From Marchantia polymorpha subsp. ruderalis (lineage: Eukaryota; Streptophyta; Marchantiopsida; Marchantiales; Marchantiaceae): a stretch of 64,000 bases of DNA. Location: the NCBI GenBank assembly GCA_037833965.1, contig AP031359.1:3034001-3098000 (forward strand). The letters run 5' to 3'. Every line of letters starts with the position of its first letter. Within the stretch, counting starts at the first letter, position 1. Under the pieces are notes generated by a model that was given only the letters and a program-made list of their open reading frames with translations, did no database searches and was not told where the DNA came from. This document shows positions 692 to 58,624 of this stretch, in pieces. The position numbers and the translations under genes were made by a program.

Positions 692-925
692 TGTAATAAC
701 CCACCAAAGGCTAAAACTGCAGTATGGTGGTAAAAAGATCGAACCCACAGGGACAGAGGCAACACTCAGAGTAAAAGTGTCACGTTTAACAGACTTTTGT
801 AGAGTTTGAATTCTAGGCGACTGTCACTCCCAGAAATACTGCAGTGCTCGACTCGGAGGCTCGACTCGGAGGAGGATCTCGACTCGGAGGATGCTCGGAG
901 GATGCACGGTACAGCGTGGTCACTC

Positions 926-952
926 CACACACACACACACACACACACACAC
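926..952. repeat. (CA)n microsatellite in LTR
   Basis: An uninterrupted CA run at the same relative position as in every R-U5 region of this family. Other copies are near 2592-2611, 13257-13276, 23765-23780, 37604-37631, 43999-44018, 59374-59392, 60399-60411 and 61912-61943. Length varies between copies. Confidence 0.9.
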
Positions 953-1621
953 CTGAAAACTGGCAAAAGCACAACTCGGAGGTCGGTCAGGACCTCCGCT
1001 TCGGATTTCAGGAGGAAAGTGTCTCAAAAGTTCACTCAGAGGTTCTGCAGGTAGTGACTCCCACTCCGGCTTTTACTGCCCTCCCGCCAGGAACTAGCGT
1101 AGGGTACCCGGACTGGACTTCCCACTTCGGAACGAAGCCTCTTCATACGCCGTGGACGTCACCCTCGACTCTCACACCAAACGCAGGGAGTGCAGGCCCG
1201 ACTGAGAACTTGACTGAGACCCAATCCAATAACAAACACACACACAACCTGAATTGCAAACCAAGGCTTACACGAAGTAATAAAACTTCACTTTGGCATT
1301 CAGGGGAAACTTCCCGTAGGAGTACAATCAGGATATGTCACTCGAAGGAGTAAGGGGGAACTGTTCAAGTCTCTAACTTGCAACCGGCTCTAAGCATCAG
1401 AAATCACCCGCAGGTGCAGATCCGCACTACTCAAGTCTCTAACCGGGTACTAGCTCTGAACATTCAGCCGAAGGCCTTCAACTACAATGTACGGTAACTT
1501 CTCTATGCTGCAGCTTCTCTACGTGGTGCCAGGACCAAAATGCACAAACACGCCAAGAAAGTGAGTTCCTGATCTGCACTTCCGAAACTGGAAGAGTCCC
1601 AAGGCAAAACGCCTTGATCTA

Positions 1622-1628
1622 CTTTATA
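1622..1628 (-). promoter_or_regulatory. TATA box of A-type solo LTR
   Basis: TATAAAG on the minus strand, about 35-40 bp downstream of the U3 ORF stop. It is conserved in every LTR of the family in this window and is followed by the CAAGGC / GCCTTG inverted repeat. Confidence 0.6.
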
Positions 1629-1660
1629 CCCTCAAAGGTCCTAACTAACACTACGCTATG

Positions 1661-2355
1661 CTATCTACTACTCGCAACACCTGCGCGAAACCAAACTATA
1701 CTACTGCACTCGGCGGATCCGGTGCTGCGCCTCCTGCGCGCCGGACTGCTCCGCTCGCTGTCTCTACCTTGCCAGTCTTCCGACCGGCTGCGCAACCCCA
1801 GGCGTCGGAGGGCTGCAGTGACTTCCGACTCTAAGTGCGCCATAGTGTCGCGCGCACCCGACAAGAAGGTTTCTAATTTCCTCGCTACTCGCCGCCGACT
1901 CCGACTGTCACCCTCCGTCAAAGCCGCCGCCCGAAGCTCGAACTCCCTGAGTGTGATCCTCTCTTGAGCTGCCACCTCCCAATGGGCGTATCCTTTTAGA
2001 CAGTGAGTCACCCGCGTCGCCAACTCTTCTCGCGCCCGGCAGCTGCCTTCCACCTCTGCTAGCTGCATTTCCGCTTCCGCACGCTGCGCCCGCAAATCCG
2101 AGCACTCGGATTGCAAATTGCGCAACAACTTCTCATCCTCCTTGCGGGCTCTTTGACTTTCTTCCAAGGCGCGCGTCTGGCGCGCAAGCTCTGCTGCTGG
2201 GATGCGGTTTTGTCTCCGCTCTTCCTGCAATTCTGACTCGATCTTTGCTCGCATTAGCTCGGCCTCCGCCTGGCTTTTCGTCGCCGCATCCTCCCTCTGC
2301 TGCTGCAAGGCTTGGTATAGCTTCTGTGTGACCGCCAGGTGTTGTCGGAGGGCGG
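1661..2355 (-). pseudogene. U3 ORF (type A), C-terminal coiled-coil part, in solo LTR
   Basis: About 230 codons homologous to the C-terminus of the intact ORF at 13981-16536. They are rich in heptad-like Ala/Leu/Glu/Arg stretches (QEERRQN, ARQTRALEESQRARKEDE) and end in an Arg/Ser-rich tail. The gene is split by the full-length element, inserted at the codons just before 2356. The remainder is at 17886-19759 and carries further breaks. Dead copy. Confidence 0.8.
2351..2355. repeat. Target-site duplication GGCGG (left copy; right copy 17886-17890)
   Basis: GGCGG flanks both ends of the full-length element: before TGTAATAACC at 2356 and after the ACCACA end at 17885. Five bases is the normal TSD length for Ty3/gypsy integration. 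The target was the U3 ORF of an older solo LTR. Confidence 0.92.
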
Positions 2356-3275
2356 TGTAATAACCCACCAAAGGCTAAAACTGCAGTATGGTGGTAAAAA
2401 GATCGAACCCACAGGGACAGAGGCAACACACAGAGTAAAAGTGTCACATTTAACAGACTTTTGGTAGAGTTTGAATTCTAGGCGACTGTCACTCCCAGAA
2501 ATACTGTAGTGCTCGACTCGGAGGCTCGACTCGGAGGAGGAACTCAACTCGGAGGATGCTCGGAGGATGCACGGTACAGCTTGGTCACTCAACACACACA
2601 CACACACACACCTGAAACTGGCAAAAAGCACAACTCGGAGGTCGGTCAGGACCTCCGCTTCGGATTTCAGGAGGAAAGTGTCTCGCAAGTTCACTCAGAG
2701 GTTCTGCAGGAAGTGCCTCCCACTCCGGCTTTTACTGCCCTTCCGCCAGGAACTAGCGGGGGTACCCGGACTGGACTTCTCACTTCGGAACGAAGCCTCT
2801 ACGTACGCCGTGGACGTCACCCTCGACTATCACACAAAACGCAGGGAGTGCAGACCCGACTGAGAACTTACTGAAAACACGATCCAGTAACACACACACA
2901 ACCTGAATTACAAACCAAGGTTTACACGAAGTAATGAAACTTCACATTGGCATTCAGGGGAAACTTCCCGTAGGAGTACAATCAGGATATGTCACTCGAA
3001 GGAGTAAGGGGGAACTGTTCAAGTCTCTAACTCGCAGCCGGCTCTGAGCATCAGAAATCACCCGCAGGTGCAGATCCGCACTACTCAAGTCTCTAACCGG
3101 GTGCGAGCTCTGAACATTCAGCCGAAGGCCTTCAACTACAACATACGGTAACTTCGCTATGCTGCAGCTTCTCTACGTGGTGCCAGGACCAAAATGCACA
3201 AACACGCCAAGAAAGTGAGTTCCTGATCTGCACTTCCGAAACTGGAAGAGTCCCAAGGCAAAACGCCTTGATCTA

Positions 3276-3282
3276 CTTTATA
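3276..3282 (-). promoter_or_regulatory. TATA box in 3' LTR
   Basis: TATAAAG on the minus strand, 34 bp beyond the U3 ORF stop. It marks the probable U3/R boundary region, so the ORF lies entirely in U3. Confidence 0.6.
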
Positions 3283-3315
3283 CTCTCAAAAGATCCTAAC
3301 TAGCACTACGCTATC

Positions 3316-5871
3316 CTATCTACCACTCGCAGCATCTGCGCGAAACCAAACTACTCTACTGCACTCAGCAGATCCGGTGCTGCGCCTCCTGCGCGCCGGA
3401 CTGCTCCGCGTACTATCTCTACCTTGCCAGTCTTCCGACCGGCTGCGTAACCCCAGGCGTCGGAGTGCTGCAGTGACTTCCGACTGCAAGTGCGCCATAG
3501 TGTCGCGCGCACCCGACAAGAAAGTTTCTAATTTTCTTGCCACTCGCCGCCGACTCCGACTGTCACCTTCCGTCAATGCCGCCGCCCGAAGCTCGAACTC
3601 CCGGAGTGTAACCCTCTCTTGAGCTGCCACCTCCCAATGGGTGTATCCGTTTAGACAACGAGTCACCCGTGCCGCCAACTCTCCTCGTGCCCTGCAGCTG
3701 CTCTCCACCTCTGCCAGCTGCATTTCTAAATCCGCACGTTGTGTCCTCAAATCCGAGCACTCGGTTTGCAAGTTGCACAACAACTCCTCATCCTCCTTCC
3801 GGGCTCTTTGACTTTCCTCTAAGGCGCGCGTCTGGCGCGCAAGCTCGGCTGCTAGGACTTCGTTCTGTCTCCGCTCCTCCTGCAGTTCCGACTCGATCTT
3901 TGCCCGTATTAGTTCGGCCTCCGCCTGACTCTTCGTCGCCGCATCCTCCTTCTGCTGCTGCAAGGCTTGATACAGCTTCTGGGTGACCGCCAGGTGTTGT
4001 CGGAGGGCGGTGTTCCTATCCACATATACTCCGCATCTAGAGGCCCACCTTGCCACCTTGCTCCTCGTCCTTCGCCTGATTGTCTCCACATAAGACTGCG
4101 GTTTTAAGGCACTTGCGTATTTGGATGTCTTGCGATCCAGATATCGCAGGAGTGGAACTATCTGTTCGCACAGCACCCCTGTTGGCGTTTTCTGCACCGA
4201 ATCCTCTTCTTGCTCTTCCGAGCTCGTCTCATCCTCAGTCTCGAGGATCTCAGTCGCCACCGAATCCCTTGGCGACTCCCTGGAACTGTGGCGCGCAGCA
4301 GCTTCTGCTGCGACTGCTGCTCCACTGCCTGCTAAAATATCCAGGGCAGTGGGAGATCCCACTGCTTGAGCCCCTGTTCCGGCTCGATCTTCGGTTTGTG
4401 AAGGGGTCGACGCCGCAGTGACTTTTGTCACTCTTGCACCGCCCGCTTCTGCTGCCTGTCCTTCCGGCGCAATCTGCGCGGAAGGTGTCCTTGCTGAAGG
4501 TGCGTCCGCCGAAGGCGTCCGCACACTGGTCGTTGGCCCCATCCGTCTCGCAGTCGGCGAATCCGGCTGACTCTCTGTTGTCCGACTCGCAGTCGGCCGA
4601 CCAGCAGTTGTCCGACAGGGAGTCGGATACACCCTGCGCGTCTTGACTCCACTTGGCCTGCTTGTTGGGGGCGTTCTTCCAGAAGTGCCTTCCGCCGAAG
4701 ACGACCCTCTGAGGATTGTTGGCTCGTCAGCCAAACTCTCTTCCGTTTCCGGCCTGCTGTCCGGTTCAACGCGCCGTTCAGTTGGCCTTCCTTCCGTCTG
4801 TCAACCTTCAGTCATCCGACTCGCAGTCGGCCGGCTGTCAGTCCGTCCATCTCCTCCCGAAGGCCGTGGTGCCTTCTGTGCAGAGGTTTCTGCCGTCTTC
4901 CCTAGAACCTGAGCGATTATCTCTTCCTGTGTGAGATTCCGCCGGGTCGGAGTTCGCCTGGTCTCCTCAGTAACAGTTGGCATCCTGCGTGCCCTCTGTT
5001 TTGGTCGACTATGAGGCTCGGGGGTGGGCCGACCACGAGTCGGCGCAGCTGGTACTTCCGGCTGCCTGTCCTCAGGTCTCTCATCCCACTTCCGCTTGCG
5101 CGGAATGCGCTCACTTCGACGTTCTTCTGCTGCTCTGGCTGGAGCCGGAGCCGGAGGCGTACTGGCAGGTTCCTCGTCCGGATCCGTGTCTACTTCGGCC
5201 TCCCTCGAATATCTACCTGGATAAGACCGGCTCAGCTGCGGAAACCGAGTTTTCTCAGCATTCGTCAAACATCCCATCGCCCGGTAAAACACGATTAAGT
5301 AAGGCGATAGATGATTGAGCGTTCCTCCCCTCTCTTCTTGCGCATGTTGGCGCGTCACCTTCCACAGGAGCCGTGCCCAATGCACCGGAGCTCCTGACAA
5401 CACTAGCTCCACGAACTCTACCTGCCAACCATGCATGTAAGCGGTCTTGGTCGGCTGCAATATCTGCAGCAATGCTGTCGCGACATTTCTCCGCAATCGA
5501 TCCTTGTAATCCCGAGTCCGGAAACCGTTCTTGGGATGTCTGGCCACTTTGAAGAGCTCATTGTAAGAGACTTCTTCCTCCTGGGACACCTTCACGCTAT
5601 CGGCCTCGAAGAGGAGATCCCCTTCCTCGCCGGCACACCTGCCCAACACCTGCGCTCAATTGCAAATTTCCCATCTCTCTGGGTGTGGGCGAAATCCGCG
5701 AGAAGGCTTGTGTCTCTCTTGCAGATACTCGCGCACCATCTCCGGACACGTCCAATTCCACCCCCAGAGGAGAAAATCGAGCTTCAGCCTCGTCAGCACA
5801 TCTTGAAATGCGCGTAGACCGATCTGCGGCACCCTGAGTGGAGACACTCGCAGTTGGGGAACCTTCGACAT
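3316..5871 (-). pseudogene. U3 ORF (type A) copy in 3' LTR, two nonsense mutations
   Basis: Same length and frame as the intact 5' LTR copy at 13981-16536. Two in-frame stops break it. The first, near 5653, is a Trp codon changed to TGA just after the conserved WEICN motif. The second, near 4800, is CGA changed to TGA in the Arg/Thr-rich linker. Both are C-to-T type changes, one on each strand. The ATG at 5871 matches the conserved start MSKVPQLRVSPLRVP. In the genomic RNA, the 3' LTR copy is the one that lies downstream of pol. A spliced or internally initiated message from this insertion would therefore make only a truncated product. Confidence 0.85.
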
Positions 5872-7221
5872 TGCGTTGCCTGCACACACAAACGTTCTTT
5901 CGCTCACTGTCTCACAATCGCCACTGCGCGTCGGCCACTCAAGCACTGACTGCTCACTCTCTCTGCGCTCGTTCAAGATCGCTACTCCCAATTCTTTCGA
6001 GGTCCGCCAAGATCCTTGTGCAACTCGTCTCCGCACTCTCTACTCTCACTGCAGGTCGCTCCGCCCTTGCGCGTAATCTTGGAACTGGAAATTGCAAAGT
6101 CAAGAATGAGAGAATGAGACTGGAGCGCAGTCTTTTCTTCTCCGATTTCAAGAACGTCCAACGTTCTTACTGGTTGCAACGTACGCAGCCGGCTATACGG
6201 CTTAACGGTTCGCCCTTTGCATGCGCGAATTCACGTCTCCGCCTTGCGCGCATTCGCATGCTTAAACGTTGAATTCTCCCGCCGCCGCCACCTTCCGGAC
6301 TCGAGTCCGCTGCAGGGTATACGTCGGCCCTGTTGTCTTTTCCTAACCCGCCCTTCTCCGGAGGCGTGTCGCCGCTGGTGCGTTCATTATCCGTCGGCGC
6401 CTTGCTGGAGGCGCACATCCAGCCGGAGCGAATTACGCCGGCGCGCAGTCGTACCGCCTATTTTGTCCTTTATGCCTCGTCCGTTGCTGCCAGCGCATAT
6501 CCGTCAGCGCAACTCGTGCCAGCGCATCCGGCCGTCAGCGCCACGTCGGAGGCGTACATCCGACCGGCGCTTTCCTTCCATGAACAGCCGCCAAAGGCGC
6601 TTCCGACTCTGAGTTGGTTTCCTCCTGTGAGCGCGTGATTCCGCCGAAGGCGCATCGCCGAGGGCGTACGGGAATCCTTTCCGGCTGTGAACCCTAGCGC
6701 GAACGGCGCATGTCCGGCTACGAGTTTTCCGACGCTCATAACTTCTCCATTCCTGATCCATCTCCGGCGCTCTTGGGCTCGTTAGAACGAGCGTCCCGAG
6801 CTCTTTCTAATGCAACTTCAACCAACTGGATCTACCGTGTATCCCGATTGTTATGAAGGTTTTCCCTTTCCGCGCTAGCGGCGCTTCGCCGAAGGCGCAC
6901 TCATGGTCGGATGCCTTTAGAGGTCCGGGCCCTTCTCCTGACGTCTTTAGCAAAACCTCCTCCTGAGGTGTCTGCGCCGGAAGCGTAGCTTCCTTGTACG
7001 CTAGAGGCGCGTGAGTAGAGACACCTCAAAAAGAAGTCTTTGCCGAAGGCGCCGAAGACGTTGGCGTTGGTACATCCGACTACGTGATTCTTTGTGCCCT
7101 CGTGACGATCTCATCAATCCACTCTATTTAGCGTACCCTTCTCTAGCTACAAACACTGCTTTGGTACTAGTTTTCTAAAATTGTTTAAATTCTGCAAAAA
7201 AACAAAAAGTGTGTTACCACA

Positions 7222-7239
7222 TGCCCCCCTCCTCAATTG
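7222..7239 (-). other. Polypurine tract (plus-strand primer site)
   Basis: On the minus strand a purine run, GAGGAGGGGGG, ends two bases before the TGTGG start of the 3' LTR. This is the expected place and composition for the polypurine tract that primes plus-strand DNA synthesis. Confidence 0.88.
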
Positions 7240-7258
7240 TGAGCGCCCACGCGAACAT

Positions 7259-10099
7259 TTACACGTGGTATTTCTTCAGACGCCATCCGTTCACGCGGGT
7301 GCCTAACCATTCTCCCGTCAGTTCTGCGAGTTGGATGGATCCATTTGGAAAAACTTCTATCACCTTGTAAGGTCCCATCCACCTCAAGTGGAGCTTGCCT
7401 GGAAATCTAGCATGTCTGCTATCGTATAGCAGAGCCAAATCGCCCTTCTCCAGCAGTACTGGTTTGAGCCTTCGATCGTACTTCTCCTTCCGCCTGAGTT
7501 GTAATTGCTTTGTCCGATCTTCGGCCTCTTGACGTCTTTCCTCCAGTGCCATTACCTCTTGCAGTCGATATGCCTGACTTTCTTCCGCGTCCAGCCTTCT
7601 CTGATCTAAGGTCCTCTTGGTAGGTATCTCGAATTCGATGGGTAAGATCGGATGCTGCCCATAAACTAGGAAGTAAGGTGTTTGCCTGGTGGTGACTTTT
7701 TCTGCCGTTCTATATGCCCATAAGGCGGCCGGTAGCTTGGTATCCCAGTCATGAGCATGGTTTACAGTCACTTTGAGGAGTATCTTACAGAGTAATCCAT
7801 TGGACTTCTCTGTCAGACCATTTGCCTTGGGGTTGTATGGAGTAGTCTTCCGATGCTTAATCTGGAAGTGCCGCGTCAAACTTTCTATCACCTGATTCAG
7901 AAAGTGCGTTCCTCTGTCACTGACTATTTCTAGTGGGCACCCGTAGCGGGTGATGATGGATTCGAATAGGAACCGTGCTACTGCGGCTGCGTCGTCGTGC
8001 CTTGTGGCTTCTGCCTCCACCATCTTGGTCGCATAGTCTGTTGCTACCAATATGTAGCGCCTGCGCGTGCCTTTAGTGACAGGTTGTATTGGTCCCACGA
8101 AGTCGATCCCCCACTTTTCAAATGGTGCCAATGGCATTATTGGTGTAAGAGGCCATCTCGTGGTCGGAGTCGGCCTTCCCGTCCTCTGGCAGCTGTCGCA
8201 TTTGCGAACGTAGTCGTGTACATCTTTGAACATCGTCGGCCACCAGTATCCTGCATTCACAATTTTGGTCACTGTGTTTCTGGTGGCGTAGTGACCACCA
8301 GCGTCTTCTGTGTGCATGGCTTTGACAACTCGCGGTACTTCAGACTCCTCTAGACATCTGCACAACCTCTCGTCTGCCATTTTCTTGAACAAGACCCCTT
8401 GTTGGAGCTGGTAAGGTCCCGCTTTATGAACGAAGACTGTGCGCTGCTCCGCATCCAATCCTTCCGGACATTGGAGTGTGAGCAGAAACCTGTATAAGTC
8501 CGCGTACCTGGACTCGTGGCTGGCGGACAACTGAAAAAGTTGTTCGTCGGGAAAATCATCCACTACTTCCTCCTCTATTGGTTCGGTCCATAGTCGGGAG
8601 AGGTAGTCCGCGTTGTCATGGTGAACGCCTTTCCGTGTCTGTACAGTGTAGGTGAATTCCTGCAGCAGTAGTACCCACCTGGCAATTCGTCCGGACAGAT
8701 CCGCCTTCTTCACTAGGTGCTGTAAGGCGTAATGATCTACATGAAACACGAACTCATAGCAGATCAAATAATGTCGGAACTTCTTACAGGAGTACACCAT
8801 TCCCAACGCCTCCCTCTCAGTTGTCGTGTACTTCTTCTCTGCTGCTGACAACTGACGACTCGCGAAGTAAATCGGGTAGTCTTTCTTGTTGTCGTTCTTC
8901 TGACTGAGAACCACCCCGATTGCAAACGCCGACGTGTCTACATAGACATGGAAAGGTCTGTTCCAATCCGGACTTCTCAGAACCGGAGCAGTCGTCAGTT
9001 TGGCTTTGAGCGTTTCAAAGGCCAGCTGTTGCTCCTTGCCCCACACATAGGGTTCATCCTTCTTAAGCAGCTTCGTCAGATCGGCTGCCAAGATGGCGTA
9101 CATATTTATGAACCTTCTGTAATAACCTACATGGCCAAGGAAGGCCCTCAACTCACGCAGATTCGTTGGCGGCTGCAGTTCGAGAATAATCTTCACCTTC
9201 TCTACATCCACTGCAATGCCATCGGACGAAACTCGGTGCCCCAGCAGGATTCCGCTGGTCATGAAGAAAAAACATTTCTCAGGGTGTAAGGACAAGCTGC
9301 TTTCCCTACACCTGTCGAACGTTTGCCGAAGATGGTTAAGGTGCTCCGACCTCTTACCGAAGACACAAAAGTCGTCGATGAAAATTTCTAGGAACTTCCT
9401 CAGGTGCTCTTGGAAGATGTCTGTCATCATCCGCTGGAACGTCGCTGGCGCGTTGCACAGACCGAACGGCATCTTGTGATAAGCATAGGTTCCCCAGTCG
9501 GTCGTGAAGGTTGTTTTGTCCTTGTCCTGTTCCCTGATGGACACCTGGTTGTAGCCGGAAAATCCGTCTAGGAAACTGTAGCATTCATGCCCTGCTACAT
9601 GGTCCAGAATAGAGTCCGTGAAAGGAAGAGGGTGATGGTCCTTCCTCGTTGCTGCGTTCAGCTTTCGAAAGTCCTGGCACACCCGGATCTTACCCGTCAG
9701 TTTCTTGGGCACGATCACGATAGGCGACACCCACTCGCTACTAAGTACCGGGTAGATGATTCCTGCGCTCAGGTACTTATCGATTTCGTCCTTCACCAAT
9801 AATGAATATTTTGGGTTGAGCCTGTATTGGCGTTGGCGAACCGGAACTGCCTCGTCCAACAAGTCGATCCTGTGCTCTCCATACCTTGCAGGTATGCCTT
9901 TCATGTCTTCAATCTTCCATGCGAAGACATCCTCATACTGGCGAAGAAACGCCTGTACCCTGTTCAACTCTTCGCCTTGTACCTGGCTTGACACCTTCAA
10001 GCCTTTACCTGGACTGAGCTGCAGTTCGCAGCAATCACTCGGGTCAACAATCCCCTCTGTGTGACTGATTTCGCTTCTGCCCAGTCCGGCTGCTAGTTG
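7259..10099 (-). CDS. pol: Pol: reverse transcriptase, RNase H, integrase (by UAG readthrough)
   Basis: Open frame directly after the gag-protease UAG and in the same frame, with no ATG near its start; translation by readthrough is therefore likely. From a point about 34 codons after the stop (10000) it runs 913 residues. RT motifs in order: VRQRQYRLNPKY, CQDFRKLNAATRKDHHPLPF, LDGFSGYNQV (catalytic Asp about 145) and FIDDF (about 207-210, Phe in place of the usual Tyr of YxDD). RNase H follows (VYVDTSAFAIG, TTEREALGMVY, NADYLSR). The integrase has an HHCC zinc site (GGHYATRN ... KCDSCQR) and a core with Asp in GIDFVG, Asp in SDRGTHF and Glu in GLTEKSNG, spaced D-35-E. The C-terminus has a GPY-type module (MGPYKVIEVFPNGSIQL) and no chromodomain. 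I see no breaks, so it is potentially active. Confidence 0.93.
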   Translation of the reverse strand, partial: QLAAGLGRSEISHTEGIVDPSDCCELQLSPGKGLKVSSQVQGEELNRVQAFLRQYEDVFAWKIEDMKGIPARYGEHRIDLLDEAVPVRQRQYRLNPKYSLLVKDEIDKYLSAGIIYPVLSSEWVSPIVIVPKKLTGKIRVCQDFRKLNAATRKDHHPLPFTDSILDHVAGHECYSFLDGFSGYNQVSIREQDKDKTTFTTDWGTYAYHKMPFGLCNAPATFQRMMTDIFQEHLRKFLEIFIDDFCVFGKRSEHLNHLRQTFDRCRESSLSLHPEKCFFFMTSGILLGHRVSSDGIAVDVEKVKIILELQPPTNLRELRAFLGHVGYYRRFINMYAILAADLTKLLKKDEPYVWGKEQQLAFETLKAKLTTAPVLRSPDWNRPFHVYVDTSAFAIGVVLSQKNDNKKDYPIYFASRQLSAAEKKYTTTEREALGMVYSCKKFRHYLICYEFVFHVDHYALQHLVKKADLSGRIARWVLLLQEFTYTVQTRKGVHHDNADYLSRLWTEPIEEEVVDDFPDEQLFQLSASHESRYADLYRFLLTLQCPEGLDAEQRTVFVHKAGPYQLQQGVLFKKMADERLCRCLEESEVPRVVKAMHTEDAGGHYATRNTVTKIVNAGYWWPTMFKDVHDYVRKCDSCQRTGRPTPTTRWPLTPIMPLAPFEKWGIDFVGPIQPVTKGTRRRYILVATDYATKMVEAEATRHDDAAAVARFLFESIITRYGCPLEIVSDRGTHFLNQVIESLTRHFQIKHRKTTPYNPKANGLTEKSNGLLCKILLKVTVNHAHDWDTKLPAALWAYRTAEKVTTRQTPYFLVYGQHPILPIEFEIPTKRTLDQRRLDAEESQAYRLQEVMALEERRQEAEDRTKQLQLRRKEKYDRRLKPVLLEKGDLALLYDSRHARFPGKLHLRWMGPYKVIEVFPNGSIQLAELTGEWLGTRVNGWRLKKYHV

Positions 10100-10102
10100 C
10101 TA
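10094..10102 (-). promoter_or_regulatory. Stop-codon readthrough signal UAG CAA CTA
   Basis: The gag-protease frame ends in TAG at 10100-10102, followed by CAA CTA. This fits UAG CAR-YYA, the context known from tobamovirus replicase readthrough and reported for some plant retroelements. The frame stays open after it and the residues (QLAAGLGRSEISHTEGIVD) are conserved in element D. Element D has TAG CAA TTA at the same place (48245-48253). Confidence 0.8.
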
Positions 10103-12937
10103 TTCCTCATCCGGATACACCTCGTCTCTTTCCTCCTCAATGGAGCAGCAAGTGACGTAGCCCACAAAGTCTTCCGACGTTTCGGTCTCTGAAGTGCATG
10201 TTGAGCTGGTCTCCCCTCCGGTTGTGTAACCGGAGGTGGTGGAAGGTGTTTCGCCCTCATGGGGTACCTTGGTCCACGGTACGGTAATGACAGTCGGAGG
10301 GTCCGCAGGGCTACGGAACTGTAATCTCTTCCTACTCCAGTCACACCTTGCTTTGGCTTCGTATAGCCACGGTCTGCCAAGCAGCACATCATAACCTTTC
10401 TTCATCAGAGGTTTCAGTATTATGTAGGACAGTTGAAAGTCCACTCCTCCAATGTTGGTTCTCACATTGCTCAACATTCCTAGTGGCATTCTGCGTGTTT
10501 GATCGGCCAGTCGCAATACTCGGGATGTAGGCTCGAAGGTCTGGAACCCCAAGGAGTTCGCTGTCTCCTCGGTCATGATATTCACGCCCGAGCCGGAGTC
10601 CACTGGTACCTTCTGAATGACGCAGCCTCCGATCTCTACTTCGATCTCTGGAGGTCCCAGGTCTCCTCCTTCCACTCTGTACACAGCCGGAAGTTTCTCT
10701 TTTCGGGGTTTGCGTGGTCGGCGCAACGAAAGCATCAGCATCCTCCTGTACGTCTTATTGTCTTCCAACAACTGGTGGAAGGAAATATTTGCCCTCTGGC
10801 TCCCCATGTCTTTCACTATGTCGTAGGGAGTGCTGGAAGTCACGGCCGGAAGTTTCCCTGTACTCGCGGTCGGAAGGGGTGTAGGGGGCCTAACTGCCTT
10901 CCGGTCGTCGGATGTCATTCCGGCGCCCAGTGCTTCCTTGATGAGGTGACTCACCTCATCTTTGATGTCCGGAAGGTAATCTCGAGTCCGGAACTCTTCT
11001 GAATACCTGTCCGCCTTTTCTGAGTTCTGCTCCGGCTGGGTGTTTCTCATAGCCGGAGGTGTACTTGGCGTTCTCCTTTGGCCTTCTCTAACTTCTTTAG
11101 ACTTCCTCCTCTCTTCCCTACGCTCGAGGCGGCGAGTGTCCTCATGGCCTTCTCCTCTCCTCTTCGAACTTCGGGTTTCTACCCGGCCGCACATTACTTC
11201 TTCCTCTGGCCATACTTCGTCTCCTTCAGCTGGGTCCAGACTCAGTTCTACCTGGTTGACCTGCACCTCTTCCTTGCCAGGTGTTGATACGAAACGCACG
11301 GCTGGCCTAGGGATTTGGGGCTGGTCACATTCAGCTGCTGTATGTCCGGACTTCTTGCAATTGCTGCACAATGGTGCATACCCCATTGGCTTCCTCGGGT
11401 GGGGACAACTTGGCGCGTAATGCCCCATGTCTCCGCAGTTGTAGCAACCATCGAATTGTGGTCGAGGTCGGTGATTTCCTGTGTGATTTCCTGGAGGTGC
11501 CATGCGCCTTGGTGGGAGTGTACCCGCCATTTCCCTCGGAACAAAGCGCGGTATATGCACCGGTGGGTTCAGAGTTGTAGCTGGAGCTGTCTGTACCGAG
11601 TAGGCGGTGTCCTCCACCTGCTCAGCATAATACATAGGCGGCTCAGCATAATACATGGGGTTCTCCCACTGTGGTGCCCATTCGACCGCATTCACTGGGT
11701 AAGATGGCCTCGCGGACATGCACTCCGTGTTGGCATGTCCCACCTGTCCGCACGTAGTACACCAGAGATTCGCTCGTTGTCTTGCAGGTGATTTACGTCG
11801 GTCTTGGCCTCCCACTACATGAACTTTCAGGTCCGCAAAATTCTTCACCAGGTTGTCTACCTTGGCTGCGATGTCCCCTTGAGTCTTCACTGGGATTCCC
11901 TTACCTCGATCCTTCTTCTTGATCGCACTGCGTTTCTTCTTCCGTCTTTCTTCTTCTGAAGATGACGAGTCCTCTTCCTCTTCCGAGGAAGAACTTGATT
12001 CGGAGGAGCTTGATTCTTCTGTCGAGGAAGGCGAGTTCCTTCTCTTCCGACGTCCGCCTTGCGACTTCTTCTTCGTCGACCGTCGGTCGCGTCTTCGAGT
12101 GTCAAGGGTTGACGTCTCAAAGGTCTCCGCGGAAGCTATCACATCTTGGATTGTGTCAGTCTTGCCTCTCCTACAGAAGGTCTCCATTTCTCTTGGGAGC
12201 CCTGTCACATACCAATCCACTGCCTGTTGTACCGAATACGGTTCTCCCGGGCCTGTCTTCGGAATTCGATCTAGGAGGTCTTGGAATCTCTCAGTGTAGT
12301 CTCGAAGATTCTCCTTCCGCTCGCGTCGAAGATTTCGAAGCCGGGTCAGAACTCGACTGTCATATCCGAGTTCGCGGAACCGCTTCAGAAACTTTTCCTT
12401 GAGCTGAGCCCAGGTCCGGATGCCAGTGGGGTCGGTGCTCTCATGGTTGTACCAGCTACGCGCTCGTTTGCGTAGCAGGCTAGGAAAGATTCGTAATCTG
12501 TCTTCATCACTGGTCTCACGATTGGCGATGGAGACAGACTCGAAGAGCTTTATGTATGAATCTGCATCATCGTCGTCGCCCGTTCCCGTGTATCTTGGAT
12601 ACGAATGTTTGGTGGTAGGTTGGGAAAACACCTGGCGGAGATTGGCTTGATGTTCTGCCATCGGTGATCCTGTCGACGGACTGATCCTAGGTTGGCCAAA
12701 CTCAGGAAGAGTTCCTGTCGGAGGGATGTCCAATAGAATCGTTAGCTCAATGCTCTCGGTAGGTGAACTGGAACACCTTTGTCTTCCAGTAGTCGGTGAT
12801 GGCGATCTTTCTGCAGAGTCCTCACCGGGAGTCTTCTTTTTAGTTCGCCGTTTTGTTTCCACGGCTTTTTCTGAATCTCGACGGAGTTTCCGTGTGGCTC
12901 TCGCACTCAGGTTTCCCACACTATCGCTCGTCGACAT
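10100..12937 (-). CDS. gag: Gag-protease polyprotein
   Basis: 945 codons from ATG at 12937, with start MSTSDSVGNLSARATRK. Residues about 120-235 form a retrotransposon Gag capsid-like domain (YIKLFESVSIANRE, RKRARSWYNHES, LKEKFLKRFRELG). A Ser/Glu-rich acidic and then Lys-rich stretch follows. There are three CCHC zinc knuckles (WCTTCGQVGHANTEC, CYNCGDMGHYAPSC, CSNCKKSGHTAAEC) for RNA binding. The retropepsin region has its catalytic triad DSG at 780-782 (VPVDSGSGVN) and the flap-side motif VLLGRPWL. The ORF is uninterrupted. Protease is fused to Gag, and the stop separates it from RT, so the readthrough ratio sets structural versus enzymatic product. Confidence 0.93.
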   Translation of the reverse strand: MSTSDSVGNLSARATRKLRRDSEKAVETKRRTKKKTPGEDSAERSPSPTTGRQRCSSSPTESIELTILLDIPPTGTLPEFGQPRISPSTGSPMAEHQANLRQVFSQPTTKHSYPRYTGTGDDDDADSYIKLFESVSIANRETSDEDRLRIFPSLLRKRARSWYNHESTDPTGIRTWAQLKEKFLKRFRELGYDSRVLTRLRNLRRERKENLRDYTERFQDLLDRIPKTGPGEPYSVQQAVDWYVTGLPREMETFCRRGKTDTIQDVIASAETFETSTLDTRRRDRRSTKKKSQGGRRKRRNSPSSTEESSSSESSSSSEEEEDSSSSEEERRKKKRSAIKKKDRGKGIPVKTQGDIAAKVDNLVKNFADLKVHVVGGQDRRKSPARQRANLWCTTCGQVGHANTECMSARPSYPVNAVEWAPQWENPMYYAEPPMYYAEQVEDTAYSVQTAPATTLNPPVHIPRFVPREMAGTLPPRRMAPPGNHTGNHRPRPQFDGCYNCGDMGHYAPSCPHPRKPMGYAPLCSNCKKSGHTAAECDQPQIPRPAVRFVSTPGKEEVQVNQVELSLDPAEGDEVWPEEEVMCGRVETRSSKRRGEGHEDTRRLERREERRKSKEVREGQRRTPSTPPAMRNTQPEQNSEKADRYSEEFRTRDYLPDIKDEVSHLIKEALGAGMTSDDRKAVRPPTPLPTASTGKLPAVTSSTPYDIVKDMGSQRANISFHQLLEDNKTYRRMLMLSLRRPRKPRKEKLPAVYRVEGGDLGPPEIEVEIGGCVIQKVPVDSGSGVNIMTEETANSLGFQTFEPTSRVLRLADQTRRMPLGMLSNVRTNIGGVDFQLSYIILKPLMKKGYDVLLGRPWLYEAKARCDWSRKRLQFRSPADPPTVITVPWTKVPHEGETPSTTSGYTTGGETSSTCTSETETSEDFVGYVTCCSIEEERDEVYPDEE

Positions 12938-12980
12938 TCACCGAGCATTGCTGCTCAAGGTTTCTGGTGTTGACGCACTG

Positions 12981-12998
12981 TCCCCGGCAGCGGCGCCA
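12981..12998 (-). other. Primer-binding site (tRNA-Asp type)
   Basis: On the minus strand TGGCGCCGCTGCCGGGGA lies just upstream of gag. Its complement ends in GGCGCCA and matches the 3' end of plant tRNA-Asp (CCCCGGCAACGGCGCCA) apart from one base. It is separated from the LTR end at 13021 by 22 bp, longer than usual. The same PBS and spacing occur in element D. Confidence 0.85.
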
Positions 12999-13940
12999 AA
13001 AAGAAGTTGTCGGCTCCTTATGTAATAACCCACCAAAGGCTAAAACTGCAGTATGGTGGTAAAAAGATCGAACCCACAGGGACAGAGGCAACACACAGAG
13101 TAAAAGTGTCACATTTAACAGACTTTTGGTAGAGTTTGAATTCTAGGCGACTGTCACTCCCAGAAATACTGTAGTGCTCGACTCGGAGGCTCGACTCGGA
13201 GGAGGAACTCAACTCGGAGGATGCTCGGAGGATGCACGGTACAGCTTGGTCACTCAACACACACACACACACACACCTGAAACTGGCAAAAAGCACAACT
13301 CGGAGGTCGGTCAGGACCTCCGCTTCGGATTTCAGGAGGAAAGTGTCTCGCAAGTTCACTCAGAGGTTCTGCAGGAAGTGCCTCCCACTCCGGCTTTTAC
13401 TGCCCTTCCGCCAGGAACTAGCGGGGGTACCCGGACTGGACTTCTCACTTCGGAACGAAGCCTCTACGTACGCCGTGGACGTCACCCTCGACTATCACAC
13501 AAAACGCAGGGAGTGCAGACCCGACTGAGAACTTACTGAAAACACGATCCAGTAACACACACACAACCTGAATTACAAACCAAGGTTTACACGAAGTAAT
13601 GAAACTTCACATTGGCATTCAGGGGAAACTTCCCGTAGGAGTACAATCAGGATATGTCACTCGAAGGAGTAAGGGGGAACTGTTCAAGTCTCTAACTCGC
13701 AGCCGGCTCTGAGCATCAGAAATCACCCGCAGGTGCAGATCCGCACTACTCAAGTCTCTAACCGGGTGCGAGCTCTGAACATTCAGCCGAAGGCCTTCAA
13801 CTACAACATACGGTAACTTCGCTATGCTGCAGCTTCTCTACGTGGTGCCAGGACCAAAATGCACAAACACGCCAAGAAAGTGAGTTCCTGATCTGCACTT
13901 CCGAAACTGGAAGAGTCCCAAGGCAAAACGCCTTGATCTA

Positions 13941-13947
13941 CTTTATA
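13941..13947 (-). promoter_or_regulatory. TATA box driving genomic RNA
   Basis: TATAAAG on the minus strand, 34 bp after the stop of the U3 ORF. Transcription should start near 13915-13900. That leaves a leader of about 0.9 kb before the PBS and excludes the 5' LTR ORF copy from the genomic RNA. The inverted repeat CAAGGC / GCCTTG lies directly downstream. Confidence 0.6.
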
Positions 13948-13980
13948 CTCTCAAAAGATCCTAACTAGCACTACGCTATC

Positions 13981-16536
13981 CTATCTACCACTCGCAGCAT
14001 CTGCGCGAAACCAAACTACTCTACTGCACTCAGCAGATCCGGTGCTGCGCCTCCTGCGCGCCGGACTGCTCCGCGTACTATCTCTACCTTGCCAGTCTTC
14101 CGACCGGCTGCGTAACCCCAGGCGTCGGAGTGCTGCAGTGACTTCCGACTGCAAGTGCGCCATAGTGTCGCGCGCACCCGACAAGAAAGTTTCTAATTTT
14201 CTTGCCACTCGCCGCCGACTCCGACTGTCACCTTCCGTCAATGCCGCCGCCCGAAGCTCGAACTCCCGGAGTGTAACCCTCTCTTGAGCTGCCACCTCCC
14301 AATGGGTGTATCCGTTTAGACAACGAGTCACCCGTGCCGCCAACTCTCCTCGTGCCCTGCAGCTGCTCTCCACCTCTGCCAGCTGCATTTCTAAATCCGC
14401 ACGTTGTGTCCTCAAATCCGAGCACTCGGTTTGCAAGTTGCACAACAACTCCTCATCCTCCTTCCGGGCTCTTTGACTTTCCTCTAAGGCGCGCGTCTGG
14501 CGCGCAAGCTCGGCTGCTAGGACTTCGTTCTGTCTCCGCTCCTCCTGCAGTTCCGACTCGATCTTTGCCCGTATTAGTTCGGCCTCCGCCTGACTCTTCG
14601 TCGCCGCATCCTCCTTCTGCTGCTGCAAGGCTTGATACAGCTTCTGGGTGACCGCCAGGTGTTGTCGGAGGGCGGTGTTCCTATCCACATATACTCCGCA
14701 TCTAGAGGCCCACCTTGCCACCTTGCTCCTCGTCCTTCGCCTGATTGTCTCCACATAAGACTGCGGTTTTAAGGCACTTGCGTATTTGGATGTCTTGCGA
14801 TCCAGATATCGCAGGAGTGGAACTATCTGTTCGCACAGCACCCCTGTTGGCGTTTTCTGCACCGAATCCTCTTCTTGCTCTTCCGAGCTCGTCTCATCCT
14901 CAGTCTCGAGGATCTCAGTCGCCACCGAATCCCTTGGCGACTCCCTGGAACTGTGGCGCGCAGCAGCTTCTGCTGCGACTGCTGCTCCACTGCCTGCTAA
15001 AATATCCAGGGCAGTGGGAGATCCCACTGCTTGAGCCCCTGTTCCGGCTCGATCTTCGGTTTGTGAAGGGGTCGGCGCCGCAGTGACTTTTGTCACTCTT
15101 GCACCGCCCGCTTCTGCTGCCTGTCCTTCCGGCGCAATCTGCGCGGAAGGTGTCCTTGCTGAAGGTGCGTCCGCCGAAGGCGTCCGCACACTGGTCGTTG
15201 GCCCCATCCGTCTCGCAGTCGGCGAATCCGGCTGACTCTCTGTTGTCCGACTCGCAGTCGGCCGACCAGCAGTTGTCCGACTGGGAGTCGGATACACCCT
15301 GCGCGTCTTGACTCCACTTGGCCTGCTTGTTGGGGGCGTTCTTCCAGAAGTGCCTTCCGCCGAAGACGACCCTCTGAGGATTGTTGGCTCGTCAGCCAAA
15401 CTCTCTTCCGTTTCCGGCCTGCTGTCCGGTTCAACGCGCCGTTCAGTTGGCCTTCCTTCCGTCTGTCGACCTTCAGTCATCCGACTCGCAGTCGGCCGGC
15501 TGTCAGTCCGTCCATCTCCTCCCGAAGGCCGTGGTGCCTTCTGTGCAGAGGTTTCTGCCGTCTTCCCTAGAACCTGAGCGATTATCTCTTCCTGTGTGAG
15601 ATTCCGCCGGGTCGGAGTTCGCCTGGTCTCCTCAGTAACAGTTGGCATCCTGCGTGCCCTCTGTTTTGGTCGACTATGAGGCTCGGGGGTGGGCCGACCA
15701 CGAGTCGGCGCAGCTGGTACTTCCGGCTGCCTGTCCTCAGGTCTCTCATCCCACTTCCGCTTGCGCGGAATGCGCTCACTTCGACGTTCTTCTGCTGCTC
15801 TGGCTGGAGCCGGAGCCGGAGGCGTACTGGCAGGTTCCTCGTCCGGATCCGTGTCTACTTCGGCCTCCCTCGAATATCTACCTGGATAAGACCGGCTCAG
15901 CTGCGGAAACCGAGTTTTCTCAGCATTCGTCAAACATCCCATCGCCCGGTAAAACACGATTAAGTAAGGCGATAGATGATTGAGCGTTCCTCCCCTCTCT
16001 TCTTGCGCATGTTGGCGCGTCACCTTCCACAGGAGCCGTGCCCAATGCACCGGAGCTCCTGACAACACTAGCTCCACGAACTCTACCTGCCAACCATGCA
16101 TGTAAGCGGTCTTGGTCGGCTGCAATATCTGCAGCAATGCTGTCGCGACATTTCTCCGCAATCGATCCTTGTAATCCCGAGTCCGGAAACCGTTCTTGGG
16201 ATGTCTGGCCACTTTGAAGAGCTCATTGTAAGAGACTTCTTCCTCCTGGGACACCTTCACGCTATCGGCCTCGAAGAGGAGATCCCCTTCCTCGCCGGCA
16301 CACCTGCCCAACACCTGCGCCCAATTGCAAATTTCCCATCTCTCTGGGTGTGGGCGAAATCCGCGAGAAGGCTTGTGTCTCTCTTGCAGATACTCGCGCA
16401 CCATCTCCGGACACGTCCAATTACACCCCCAGAGGAGAAAATCGAGCTTGAGCCTCGTCAGCACATCTTGAAATGCGCGTAGACCGATCTGCGGCACCCT
16501 GAGTGGAGACACTCGCAGTTGGGGAACCTTCGACAT
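13981..16536 (-). CDS. Unknown LTR-encoded protein (U3 ORF, type A), intact
   Basis: The open frame extends to 16701, but the first ATG is at 16536. It matches the conserved start in all copies (MSKVPQLRVSPLRVP; type B MSRLNRLRMLPLRLP), giving 851 residues. Residues 1-210: conserved domain with LKLDFLLWG, CPEMVREYL, WAQVLGRCAGEEGDLLF, RTRDYKDRLRRNVATALLQ and GAPVHWARLLWK, and a conserved HLSPYLIVFYR block. Residues 210-560: low-complexity Pro/Arg/Thr/Ser linker with basic clusters. Then an acidic patch (ETEDETSSEEQEED), the motif QIVPLLRYLDRK and a long predicted coiled coil rich in Glu/Arg/Ala/Leu up to a basic Ser/Arg tail. No catalytic motif, zinc finger, signal peptide or membrane segment is seen. 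From memory the N-terminal domain recalls 'putative plant transposon protein' domains; unverified. By position it is analogous to accessory genes of retroviral U3 regions, with no claim of homology. Confidence 0.8.
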   Translation of the reverse strand: MSKVPQLRVSPLRVPQIGLRAFQDVLTRLKLDFLLWGCNWTCPEMVREYLQERHKPSRGFRPHPERWEICNWAQVLGRCAGEEGDLLFEADSVKVSQEEEVSYNELFKVARHPKNGFRTRDYKDRLRRNVATALLQILQPTKTAYMHGWQVEFVELVLSGAPVHWARLLWKVTRQHAQEERGGTLNHLSPYLIVFYRAMGCLTNAEKTRFPQLSRSYPGRYSREAEVDTDPDEEPASTPPAPAPARAAEERRSERIPRKRKWDERPEDRQPEVPAAPTRGRPTPEPHSRPKQRARRMPTVTEETRRTPTRRNLTQEEIIAQVLGKTAETSAQKAPRPSGGDGRTDSRPTASRMTEGRQTEGRPTERRVEPDSRPETEESLADEPTILRGSSSAEGTSGRTPPTSRPSGVKTRRVYPTPSRTTAGRPTASRTTESQPDSPTARRMGPTTSVRTPSADAPSARTPSAQIAPEGQAAEAGGARVTKVTAAPTPSQTEDRAGTGAQAVGSPTALDILAGSGAAVAAEAAARHSSRESPRDSVATEILETEDETSSEEQEEDSVQKTPTGVLCEQIVPLLRYLDRKTSKYASALKPQSYVETIRRRTRSKVARWASRCGVYVDRNTALRQHLAVTQKLYQALQQQKEDAATKSQAEAELIRAKIESELQEERRQNEVLAAELARQTRALEESQRARKEDEELLCNLQTECSDLRTQRADLEMQLAEVESSCRARGELAARVTRCLNGYTHWEVAAQERVTLREFELRAAALTEGDSRSRRRVARKLETFLSGARDTMAHLQSEVTAALRRLGLRSRSEDWQGRDSTRSSPARRRRSTGSAECSRVVWFRADAASGR

Positions 16537-17885
16537 TGCGTTGCCTGCACACACAAACGTTCTTTCGCTCACTCTCTCACAATCGCCACTGCGCGTCGGC
16601 CACTCAAGCACTGACTGCTCACTCTCTCTGCGCTCGTTCAAGATCGCTACTCCCAATTCTTTCGAGGTCCGCCAAGATCCTTGTGCAACTCGTCTCCGCA
16701 CTCTCTACTCTCACTGCAGGTCGCTCCGCCCTTGCGCGTAATCTTGGAACTGGAAATTGCAAAGTCAAGAATGAGAGAATGAGACTGGAGCGCAGTCTTT
16801 TCTTCTCCGATTTCAAGAACGTCCAACGTTCTTACTGGTTGCAACGTACGCAGCCGGCTATACGGCTTAACGGTTCGCCCTTTGCATGCGCGAATTCACG
16901 TCTCCGCCTTGCGCGCATTCGCATGCTTAAACGTTGAATTCTCCCGCCGCCGCCACCTTCCGGACTCGAGTCCGCTGCAGGGTATACGTCGGCCCTGTTG
17001 TCTTTTCCTAACCCGCCCTTCTCCGGAGGCGTGTCGCCGCTGGTGCGTTCATTATCCGTCGGCGCCTTGCTGGAGGCGCACATCCAGCCGGAGCGAATTA
17101 CGCCGGCGCGCAGTCGTACCGCCTATTTTGTCCTTTATGCCTCGTCCGTTGCTGCCAGCGCAACTCGTGAGCGCAACTCGTGCCAGCGCATCCGGCCGTC
17201 AGCGCCACGTCGGAGGCGTACATCCGACCGGCGCTTTCCTTCCATGAACAGCCGCCAAAGGCGCTTCCGACTCTGAGTTGGTTTCCTCCTGTGAGCGCGT
17301 GATTCCGCCGAAGGCGCATCGCCGAGGGCGTACGGGAATCCTTTCCGGCTGTGAACCCTAGCGCGAACGGCGCATGTCCGGCTACGAGTTTTCCGACGCT
17401 CATAACTTCTCCATTCCTGATCCATCTCCGGCGCTCTTGGGCTCGTTAGAACGAGCGTCCCGAGCTCTTTCTAATGCAATTTCAACCAACTGGATCTACC
17501 GTGTATCCCGATTGTTATGAAGGTTTTCCCTTTCCGCGCTAGCGGCGCTTCGCCGAAGGCGCACTCATGGTCGGATGCCTTTAGAGGTCCGGGCCCTTCT
17601 CCTGACGTCTTTAGCAAAACCTCCTCCTGAGGTGTCTGCGCCGGAAGCGTAGCTTCCTTGTACGCTAGAGGCGCGTGAGTAGAGACACCTCAAAAAGAAG
17701 TCTTTGCCGAAGGCGCCGAAGACGTTGGCGTTGGTACATCCGACTACGTGATTCTTTGTGCCCTCGTGACGATCTCATCAATCCACTCTATTTAGCGTAC
17801 CCTTCTCTAGCTACAAACACTGCTTTGGTACTAGTTTTCTAAAATTGTTTAAATTCTGCAAAAAAACAAAAAGTGTGTTACCACA

Positions 17886-19759
17886 GGCGGTGTTCCTTTC
17901 CACATATACTTGGCACCTAGAGGCCCAAGTGGCCACCTTGCTCCTCGTCCTGCGCTTGACAGTCTCCACATAAGACTGCGGTTTTCCAGTACCCGAGTAC
18001 TTGGATGTCTTGCGATCCAGATATCGCAGGAGAGGGACTATCTGCTCGCACAACACCCCTGTTGGCGTTTTCTGCACAGAATCCGCTTCCTGCTCTTCCG
18101 AGCTCGTCTCATCCTCAGTCTCGAGGATTTCAGTCGCCACCGAATCCCTTGGCGACTCCCTGGAACTGTGGCAGTGGCAGTCGCAGCAGCTTCCGCTGCG
18201 ACTGCCACTCCACTGCCTGCTAAAATATCCAAGGCAGTGGGGGATCCCACTGCTTGAGCCCCTGTTCCGGCTCGATCTTCGGTCTCCGAAGGGGTCGACG
18301 CCGCAGTGACTCTTGTCACCCTTGCACCGCCCGCTTCTGCTGCCTGCCCTTCCGGCGCAATCTGCGCGGAAGGTGTCTTCGCTGAAGGTGCGTCCGCCGA
18401 AGGCGTCCGCACACTGGTCGCCGGCCCTGTCCGTCTCGCAGTCGGCGAATCCGGCCGACTCTCTGTTGACCGACTCGCAGTCGGCCGACTAGCAGTTGTC
18501 CGACTGGGAGTCGGATACACCCTGCGCGTCTTTTCTCCACTTGGCCTGCTTGCTGGCGGCGTTTTTCCAGAAGTGCCTTCCGCCGAAGACGACTTTCTGA
18601 GGGTTGTTGGCTCGTCAGCCAAACTCTCTTCTGCTTCTGGCCGGCTGTCCGGTTCAACGCGCCGCTCAGTTGGCCTTCCTTCCGCTTGTCGACCTTCAGT
18701 CGCCCGACTCAAAGTCGGCCGACTGTCAGTCCGTCCATCTCCTTCCGAAGGCATTGGTGCCTTCTGCGCAGAGGTATTTGTCGACTTCCCTAGAATCTGC
18801 GCGATTATCTCCTCCTGCGTGGGATTCCGCCGGACCGGAGTACGCCCGGTCTCCTCAATACTAGTTGGCATTTTGCGTGCCCTCTGTTTTGGTCAACTGT
18901 GAGGCTTGTGGGTGGGCCGACTACGAGTTGGCGCAGCTGGCACTTCCGGCTGCCTGTCCTCAGGTCTCTCATCCCACTTCCGCTTTCGCGGAATGCGCTC
19001 ACTTCGACGTTCTTCTGCTGCGCTTGCTGGGGCCGGAGCCGGAGGCGGACTGGCAGGTTCCTCGTCCGGATCCGTGTCTACCTCGGCCTCCCGTGAGTAT
19101 CTACCTGGATAGCTCCGGGTCAGCAGCGGAAACCGTGTCCGCTCTGAATTTGTCGAACAACCCATCGCCCGATAAAACACAATCAGGTAAGGCGAAAGAT
19201 GATTGAGGGTTCCTCCTTTCTCTTCTTGCGCATGTTGGCGCCTCACCTTCCACAGGAGCCGTGCCCAATGCACTGGAGCTCCTGACAACACTAGCTCCAC
19301 AAATCCTACCTGCCAACCATGCATGTAAGCGGTCTTGGTCGGCTGCAATATCCGCAGCAATGCAGTCGCGACATTTCTCCGCAATCGATCTTTGTAATCC
19401 CGTGTCCGGAAACCGTTCTTGGGATGCCTGGCAACTTTGAAGAGCTCATTGTAGGAGATTTCTTCCTCCTGGGACACCTTCACGCTATCGGCCTCGAAGA
19501 GGAGATACCCTTCCTCGCCGGCACACCTGCCCAACACCTGCGCCCAGTCACAAATGTCCCACCTTTCTGGATGTGGACGGAATCCGCGTGAGGGCTTGTG
19601 TCTCTCCTGCAGATACTCGCGCACCATCTCCGGACATGTCTAGTTCCACCCCCACAGGAGGAAATCGAGCTTCAGCCCCAGCAGCACATCTTGAAATGCG
19701 CGTAGACCGATCTGCGGCACCCTGAGGGGAGACACTCGCAGCTGGGGAACCTTCGACAT
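17886..19759 (-). pseudogene. U3 ORF (type A), N-terminal and middle parts, in solo LTR
   Basis: Start ATG at 19759 (MSKVPQLRVSPLRVP). The homologous frame then has several breaks: a stop near 19643 in the conserved WGWN region, one near 18895 and a frame change around 18140-18180 beside a short repeated AGTGGCAGTCGCAGC-like stretch. The C-terminal part is at 1661-2355. Nonfunctional. Confidence 0.8.
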
Positions 19760-58581: not shown

Positions 58582-58617
58582 CGTAGTGCAGTGTAGTGCT
58601 AGTTAGGACTTAGAAGG

Positions 58618-58624
58618 TATAAAG
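58618..58624 (+). promoter_or_regulatory. TATA box of inner B-type LTR
   Basis: TATAAAG, 37 bp after the ORF stop. Same layout as in type A, so the ORF lies in U3 in both types. Confidence 0.6.

Follow-up and report, generated by a model that had tools for sequence, protein, structure and literature searches.

In this study, a window of 64,000 nucleotides of Marchantia polymorpha subsp. ruderalis (C1:3034001-3098000, the whole stretch of DNA analysed) was investigated together with the genome to which it belongs (241,466,482 bases in 9 contigs were searched). We observed that the window harbors a complete Ty3/gypsy element on its minus strand (window 2356-17885), and that the U3 part of its long terminal repeats (LTRs) carries a large sense open reading frame (ORF) of 851 codons, which, judged from its codon-level divergence, is almost certainly a gene under purifying selection. 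We consider it probable that this LTR ORF is a trans-acting accessory gene of a Marchantia clade of Ty3/gypsy elements with a TATA-less promoter of its own in U3, its expression being something that we infer from conserved sequence. LTRs are generally treated as regulatory. They are said not to encode replication enzymes (PMC3485330). Here, a large selected protein gene is spread by LTRs, with more than 1,000 exact ORF starts of one family in the genome of a model plant.

Selection on the LTR ORF

A preliminary description of the window had placed the 851-codon ORF inside each LTR of the element. Its large sense ORF within U3 was borne out, but in the focal copy the frame is intact in the 5' LTR only, the version in the 3' LTR being interrupted by two TGA codons; yet among the genome copies scored below, 21 of 22 adjacent pairs have the frame open in both members. 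The position of the ORF upstream of the LTR TATA box was also found as described, as the TATAAAG begins shortly past the stop codon (Table 1) and belongs to a block that is common to several families. This TATA block was detected near 31 of 36 LTR 3' ends, 912-1037 nt away from the terminus, whether or not the LTR holds the ORF, and we placed the ORF in U3 on the strength of this conserved block rather than of a mapped start.

The selection set comprised seven full-length copies of the family aligned over the whole LTR, namely the two LTRs of the focal element and five solo LTRs with target site duplications (TSDs) of their own, giving 21 pairs. The ratio of nonsynonymous to synonymous divergence (dN/dS) was 0.18-0.32 in 19 of these pairs and 0.37 between the solo LTRs C1:3029677 and C1:3145871; the focal element's own two LTRs gave 1.03 from four changes, with stops excluded. 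Decay of the ORF at the neutral rate in young copies, the outcome that the preliminary description had held up against its own claim, was thus not seen in the 20 pairs other than the focal one (0.18-0.37), in which synonymous divergence (dS) ranged from 0.017 to 0.30. With the codon frame shifted by one or two bases, dN/dS was 0.78-4.4 in 20 pairs (0.23 and undefined in the focal pair, with its four counted changes), and the sole length difference inside the ORF among the seven copies was one 6-bp in-frame insertion or deletion. For the focal 5' LTR compared with the solo LTR at C1:3145871, a one-sided binomial test gave p 3e-8, with 0.24 of sites assumed to be synonymous. In comparisons with distant copies (<70% amino acid identity), dN/dS was 0.13-0.32 where computable, at dS values of 0.7-3.1, which are near saturation.

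It is extremely improbable that this pattern comes from a frame that GC-rich LTR sequence left open by chance. Chance frames do occur here, as an antisense 273-codon ORF common to two LTRs of the window proved unconstrained when used as a control (proportions of synonymous and nonsynonymous differences of 0.094 and 0.086, a ratio of about 0.9, the same as in the shifted frames); the LTR ORF, by contrast, combines dN/dS far below 1 with the single in-frame length change and with the conserved residues reported below, and we rejected a chance frame on the dN/dS of close and distant copies alike. The antisense frames lie near the LTR starts, at window 54759-55580 and 50494-51315 on the minus strand, and are open without constraint.

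Non-coding divergence was below dS in 20 pairs (0.010-0.118 upstream of the ORF and 0.007-0.065 downstream), so that either the LTR flanks of the ORF would also be constrained or its synonymous sites would mutate fast, and for this reason the copies were left undated. Dating by LTR divergence is biased where much of the LTR is coding and constrained.

Relatives, copies and LTRs without the ORF

A tblastn search of 284 kb around the window found the ORF in many places. For the comparison of families, the region was extended to 298 kb, and the 29 copies in which at least 190 residues of the N-terminal domain could be aligned were clustered at 80% amino acid identity. They fell into five clusters of 12, 10, 5, 1 and 1 copies, with a minimum identity of 0.33 between representatives, and across all of them 56 of residues 20-230 were conserved at 95% or more. 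The three larger clusters were each seen within LTRs bounded by perfect TSDs; of the singletons, one has an LTR end behind it, and near the other, the most distant copy (32-34% identity), there is no LTR end in the same orientation. The sequence around the start codon is largely common to the clusters, but farther upstream it is not.

Exact matches across the genome numbered 5,665 for LTR ends, 1,212 for ORF starts of the focal family and 1,190 for junctions between the LTR and the primer binding site (PBS), with all controls at 0. If each junction represents one element with two LTRs, elements hold less than half of the LTR ends, and by this rough count solo or truncated LTRs are therefore the majority. 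The genome search for the ORF scored 53 copies, which are the best of 13,764 first-look candidates and hence a biased set that gives no population rate; all of them were 851/851 at 99-100% identity, 51 had no stop and 2 had one TGA, and they were distributed over 8 of the 9 contigs. Adjacent same-strand copies less than 15 kb apart make up the 22 pairs mentioned above, taken as LTR pairs from spacing alone; 18 of them are 10.6-10.7 kb apart, the spacing expected for two LTRs of one element, and 17 of these 18 are open in both members. At C6:10770097-10815297, five ORF copies lie exactly 10,662 bp apart; judged from this spacing, near-identical LTR-internal units are arrayed there in tandem. 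On C1, the focal insertion and its neighbors recur three times at near-constant offsets (about 2.27-2.30, 2.67-2.69 and 3.03-3.05 Mb); this fits a reported triplication on chromosome U (PMC13078153), and the three copies are one insertion.

Annotated Marchantia gene models match the ORF, as they would if a captured host gene were hitch-hiking in the element or if a host gene had been made from an LTR. We hold this to be very improbable, however, given that exact starts of the ORF in a single family number more than 1,000, that several diverged clusters lie in LTRs, and that protein matches, wherever named, are from Marchantia.

Solo LTRs with perfect 5-bp TSDs numbered 14 in the region, 10 with ORF sequence and 4 without the ORF (2.25-2.68 kb), and three of the 10 are intact (851, 853 and 851 codons), in agreement with the earlier claim that solo LTRs spread gene copies. 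A further ORF-bearing solo LTR, the older one that is split by the focal element, stands outside this count. Leftover single LTRs can therefore carry an intact gene copy.

The ORF-less LTR type is abundant, with examples at C1:3017540, 3118584, 3154069 and 3181753, and a 37-base marker of it matched 749 genome sites at up to 3 mismatches (control 0). When the ORF-less LTR C1:3118584-3121157 was compared with an ORF-bearing one, the first ~640 bp (92%) and the last ~1,000 bp (95%) were common to both, the common 3' part beginning about 17 bp past the last aligned ORF codon, so that the ORF and its upstream region are missing together and the TATA-R-U5 part is kept. Twenty ORF-less sites were sampled among the plus-strand matches listed; 18 had a recognizable LTR end, and 17 of these 18 were without a following leader or PBS, as in solo or 3' LTRs. 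One sampled ORF-less LTR continues into leader-like sequence, and gag and pol are absent from its 10 kb, a single case. Because elements with ORF-less LTRs have inserted, with perfect TSDs, the ORF is not needed in cis; that it acts in trans or is dispensable in cis is likely.

Expression and possible role of the ORF

In 24 of the 29 ORF copies (one row being anchored at residue 12), a YTCATTCTTGA-like block was noticed at 222-314 nt before the ATG, with 42 matches in total on both strands of 284 kb, and TATAWA was found within 500 nt upstream of the ATG in none of the 29. We take the block to resemble a plant initiator. On this conservation, we lean slightly towards a TATA-less promoter in U3 that belongs to the ORF itself, and such a separate promoter fits it at least as well as would production of the protein from the genomic RNA's 3' end.

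The latter route, in which splicing of the genomic RNA, or a subgenomic version of it, would yield the protein from the 3' LTR only, as for some retroviral accessory genes, is in our estimate unlikely. With transcription starting at the TATA, the genomic RNA would indeed carry the ORF behind pol, and a good splice-acceptor-like stretch, TTTTTGTTTTTTTGCAG, stands at the LTR start of the focal family, with another TGCAG just upstream of the ATG. However, these stretches are not kept in other clusters though the ORF is kept (their LTR starts read, for example, TTGCGG, TTGAGG and GTCGG, and a CAAGAACGC-like sequence precedes the ATG), and the conserved block upstream of the ATG would be superfluous to splicing. 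The idea that acceptors at these two sites are the general route to an ORF mRNA was accordingly dropped, as they are confined to the focal family and unconserved elsewhere.

It is more improbable still that the genomic RNA starts upstream of the ORF, which would make the ORF the first cistron behind a very long R. The initiator-like block upstream of the ORF would suit such a start, and rice Retrosat2 has a 2-kb R that starts at LTR nucleotide 244 (PMC3485330); against it stand the conservation of the TATA block past the ORF near those 31 of 36 LTR ends, including ORF-less LTRs that transposed, and one ORF-less LTR that also lacks the region of the upstream block.

In the reading that we prefer, a TATA-less promoter belonging to the ORF, some 240 nt before the ATG within U3, would give rise to an mRNA that ends in the poly(A) region of the LTR itself and is distinct from the genomic RNA, which would start at the TATA just past the ORF stop. 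The product would act in trans, most likely in the nucleus, where it may target either the expression of the element (anti-silencing) or the nuclear delivery of element cDNA. A more tentative extension would make the LTR a full gene cassette of its own promoter, the 851-codon accessory gene and then the promoter of the genomic RNA, with solo LTRs as a dispersed pool of trans-acting genes that support full-length and ORF-less copies. If so, solo LTRs would keep a use that they lack in other elements, where they are dead ends, and recombination between LTRs would multiply a helper gene. Solo LTRs as gene loci, two promoters sharing one LTR and an accessory protein behind the success of the clade in Marchantia are all testable.

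Several results weigh against an accessory gene that acts in trans from its own promoter. Most of the distant copies contain stops, 7 of the 10 ORF-bearing solo LTRs are broken, and an intact full-length ORF is absent from the LTRs examined outside the focal cluster in the 298-kb region. Intactness is over-stated for the population, as the scored copies are the best of the candidates; some adjacent pairs share a copy in tandem arrays, and the focal insertion's three copies on chromosome U are non-independent. Furthermore, 5 of the 29 copies have no initiator block at one mismatch, the block being a conserved sequence and not a mapped start, and ORF-less LTRs equally fit simple dispensability. 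As to the role, three protein searches covering about 5.8 billion proteins (15, 41 and 7 matches, the first two having scored the best 8000 word-sharing candidates) returned no named homologue outside Marchantia.

The ORF product has a conserved N-terminal domain spanning about residues 1-235, a linker that varies, and a C-terminal part that is basic and that we take to be helical. A basic RKRK motif at 258 recurs as a nuclear-signal-like KR[KR] in 12 of 14 aligned sequences, the other 2 being gapped there. No Pfam family reached its cut-off for the ORF (best matches E 0.04-0.07), and no solved structure of a relative was found, the best PDB sequence match having E 0.32. Scattered single-member matches among 14 relatives, reaching E 1.9e-4 (Extensin_1) and 0.0018 (CENP-K), were taken for low-complexity or coiled-coil matches. 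The search of the ORF against proteins, which had been proposed as a follow-up, gave matches that, where named, carry Marchantia names only, five short-contig matches of the second search being nameless. The gene model P0015 (MARPO_0006s0274), which holds part of the LTR ORF and gag, was considered as a possible spliced fusion and dropped, because the two are separated by a long charged repeat that is of other origin; it is either a chimeric model or a chimeric transcript. That the product is a nuclear expression or delivery factor is a possibility we hold with some doubt, its biochemical role being a guess; the nuclear role and the likeness to trans-acting anti-silencing proteins of plant DNA transposons are an analogy that we assume.

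Among known systems, the sag superantigen ORF of mouse mammary tumour virus is likewise a protein gene in both LTRs of a retroelement, a likeness of layout. The sag ORF belongs to a mammalian retrovirus, is much shorter than 851 codons and encodes a membrane superantigen. The LTR ORF shares this layout in being sense, wholly within U3 and in both LTRs, where the placement in U3 rests on the conserved TATA and the ORF of the focal 3' LTR is broken. In the literature searched, which covered a minority of subscription papers and no bioRxiv preprints, we found no LTR retrotransposon of a plant whose LTR houses a protein gene, and this is not proof of absence; the lack of a described plant precedent asserted by the preliminary description agrees with this, and the mouse virus is the parallel that recurs. 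The additional ORFs (aORFs) of plant LTR retrotransposons are internal, for the most part placed after pol and before the 3' LTR, and some encode nuclear proteins with their own promoter, such as Grande gene23 (PMC7264820); the proteins of extra ORFs (eORFs) are highly heterogeneous and share no domain across most elements of a lineage (PMC6317226). Like them, the LTR ORF is an extra sense gene without an assigned function in a large Ty3/gypsy element; unlike them, it sits wholly inside the LTR, outside the internal region, and forms a single conserved family. In rice Retrosat2, RIRE3 and RIRE8, the LTRs are likewise long (about 3 kb or more) and an extra ORF is present, but this ORF0 lies upstream of the gag-pol ORF (PMC3485330). 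Known Ty3/gypsy elements of the same genus, compared by description, likewise have no additional RNase H, and the accessible part of that description mentions no LTR-encoded protein.

The element and its surroundings

The boundaries of the gypsy element were claimed as proven in the preliminary description, and the TSD CCGCC on both sides, the PBS, the polypurine tract and the two LTRs were all confirmed (Table 1). The 5' and 3' LTRs differ in 12 alignment columns of about 4,866, one of which is a 1-bp insertion or deletion. The domain order of gag, protease, reverse transcriptase, RNase H and integrase, the TG...CA LTRs and the 5-bp TSD are those of Ty3/gypsy elements, as are the polypurine tract and the PBS, which is unusually far from the LTR (22 nt). 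Matches to aspartyl protease in gag-pro fell just under the curated cut-off in the Pfam scan (E 2e-4 to 1e-3). No chromodomain was found at the integrase end in a Pfam scan of pol at E<=1, as would mark a chromovirus, and the focal element has no additional RNase H domain of the kind typical of the Tat lineage. The insertion site lies within the ORF of an older solo LTR of the same family, which is flanked by ACACC.

Table 1. Features of the focal element and of the older LTR that it interrupts, in window coordinates
Feature	Position	Strand	Remarks
5' LTR	13021..17885	minus	4865 bp, TGTGGTAACA...GGTTATTACA
3' LTR	2356..7221	minus	4866 bp
851-codon ORF in U3 of 5' LTR, intact	13981..16536	minus	sense; ATG 16536, stop ends 13981
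Same ORF in 3' LTR, broken	3316..5871	minus	TGA at codons 72 and 357
TATAAAG, LTR promoter, 5' LTR	13941..13947	minus	begins 34 nt past ORF stop
TATAAAG, 3' LTR	3276..3282	minus	
Conserved initiator-like block CTCATTCTTGA	16765..16775	minus	starts 239 nt upstream of ATG; candidate start region of the putative ORF mRNA
TSD CCGCC, upstream side	17886..17890	minus	
TSD CCGCC, downstream side	2351..2355	minus	
PBS TGGCGCCGCTGCCGGGGA	12981..12998	minus	tRNA-like; after 22-nt spacer from 5' LTR
Polypurine tract GAGGAGGGGGGCA	7222..7234	minus	abuts 3' LTR
gag-pro ORF, 945 aa	10100..12937	minus	Retrotrans_gag and zinc-knuckle matches pass the cut-off
pol ORF, 913-codon open frame	7259..10000	minus	first ATG 9904; reverse transcriptase, RNase H, integrase
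Older same-family solo LTR, upstream part	17886..20874	minus	TSD ACACC
Older same-family solo LTR, downstream part	692..2355	minus	TSD ACACC

The PBS TGGCGCCGCTGCCGGGGA is presumably of the tRNA-Asp type. The usual distance between LTR and PBS is a few nt; here, the PBS starts 22-23 nt past the LTR end, and the spacer (window 12999-13020), TAAG[GA]AGCCGACAACTTCTTTT, is nearly invariant in the 100 places listed of 1,190 genome-wide. Elsewhere in the window, at 58570-60607 on the plus strand, the promoter-R-U5 part of an LTR is tandemly duplicated, leaving two LTR 3' ends about 1 kb apart.

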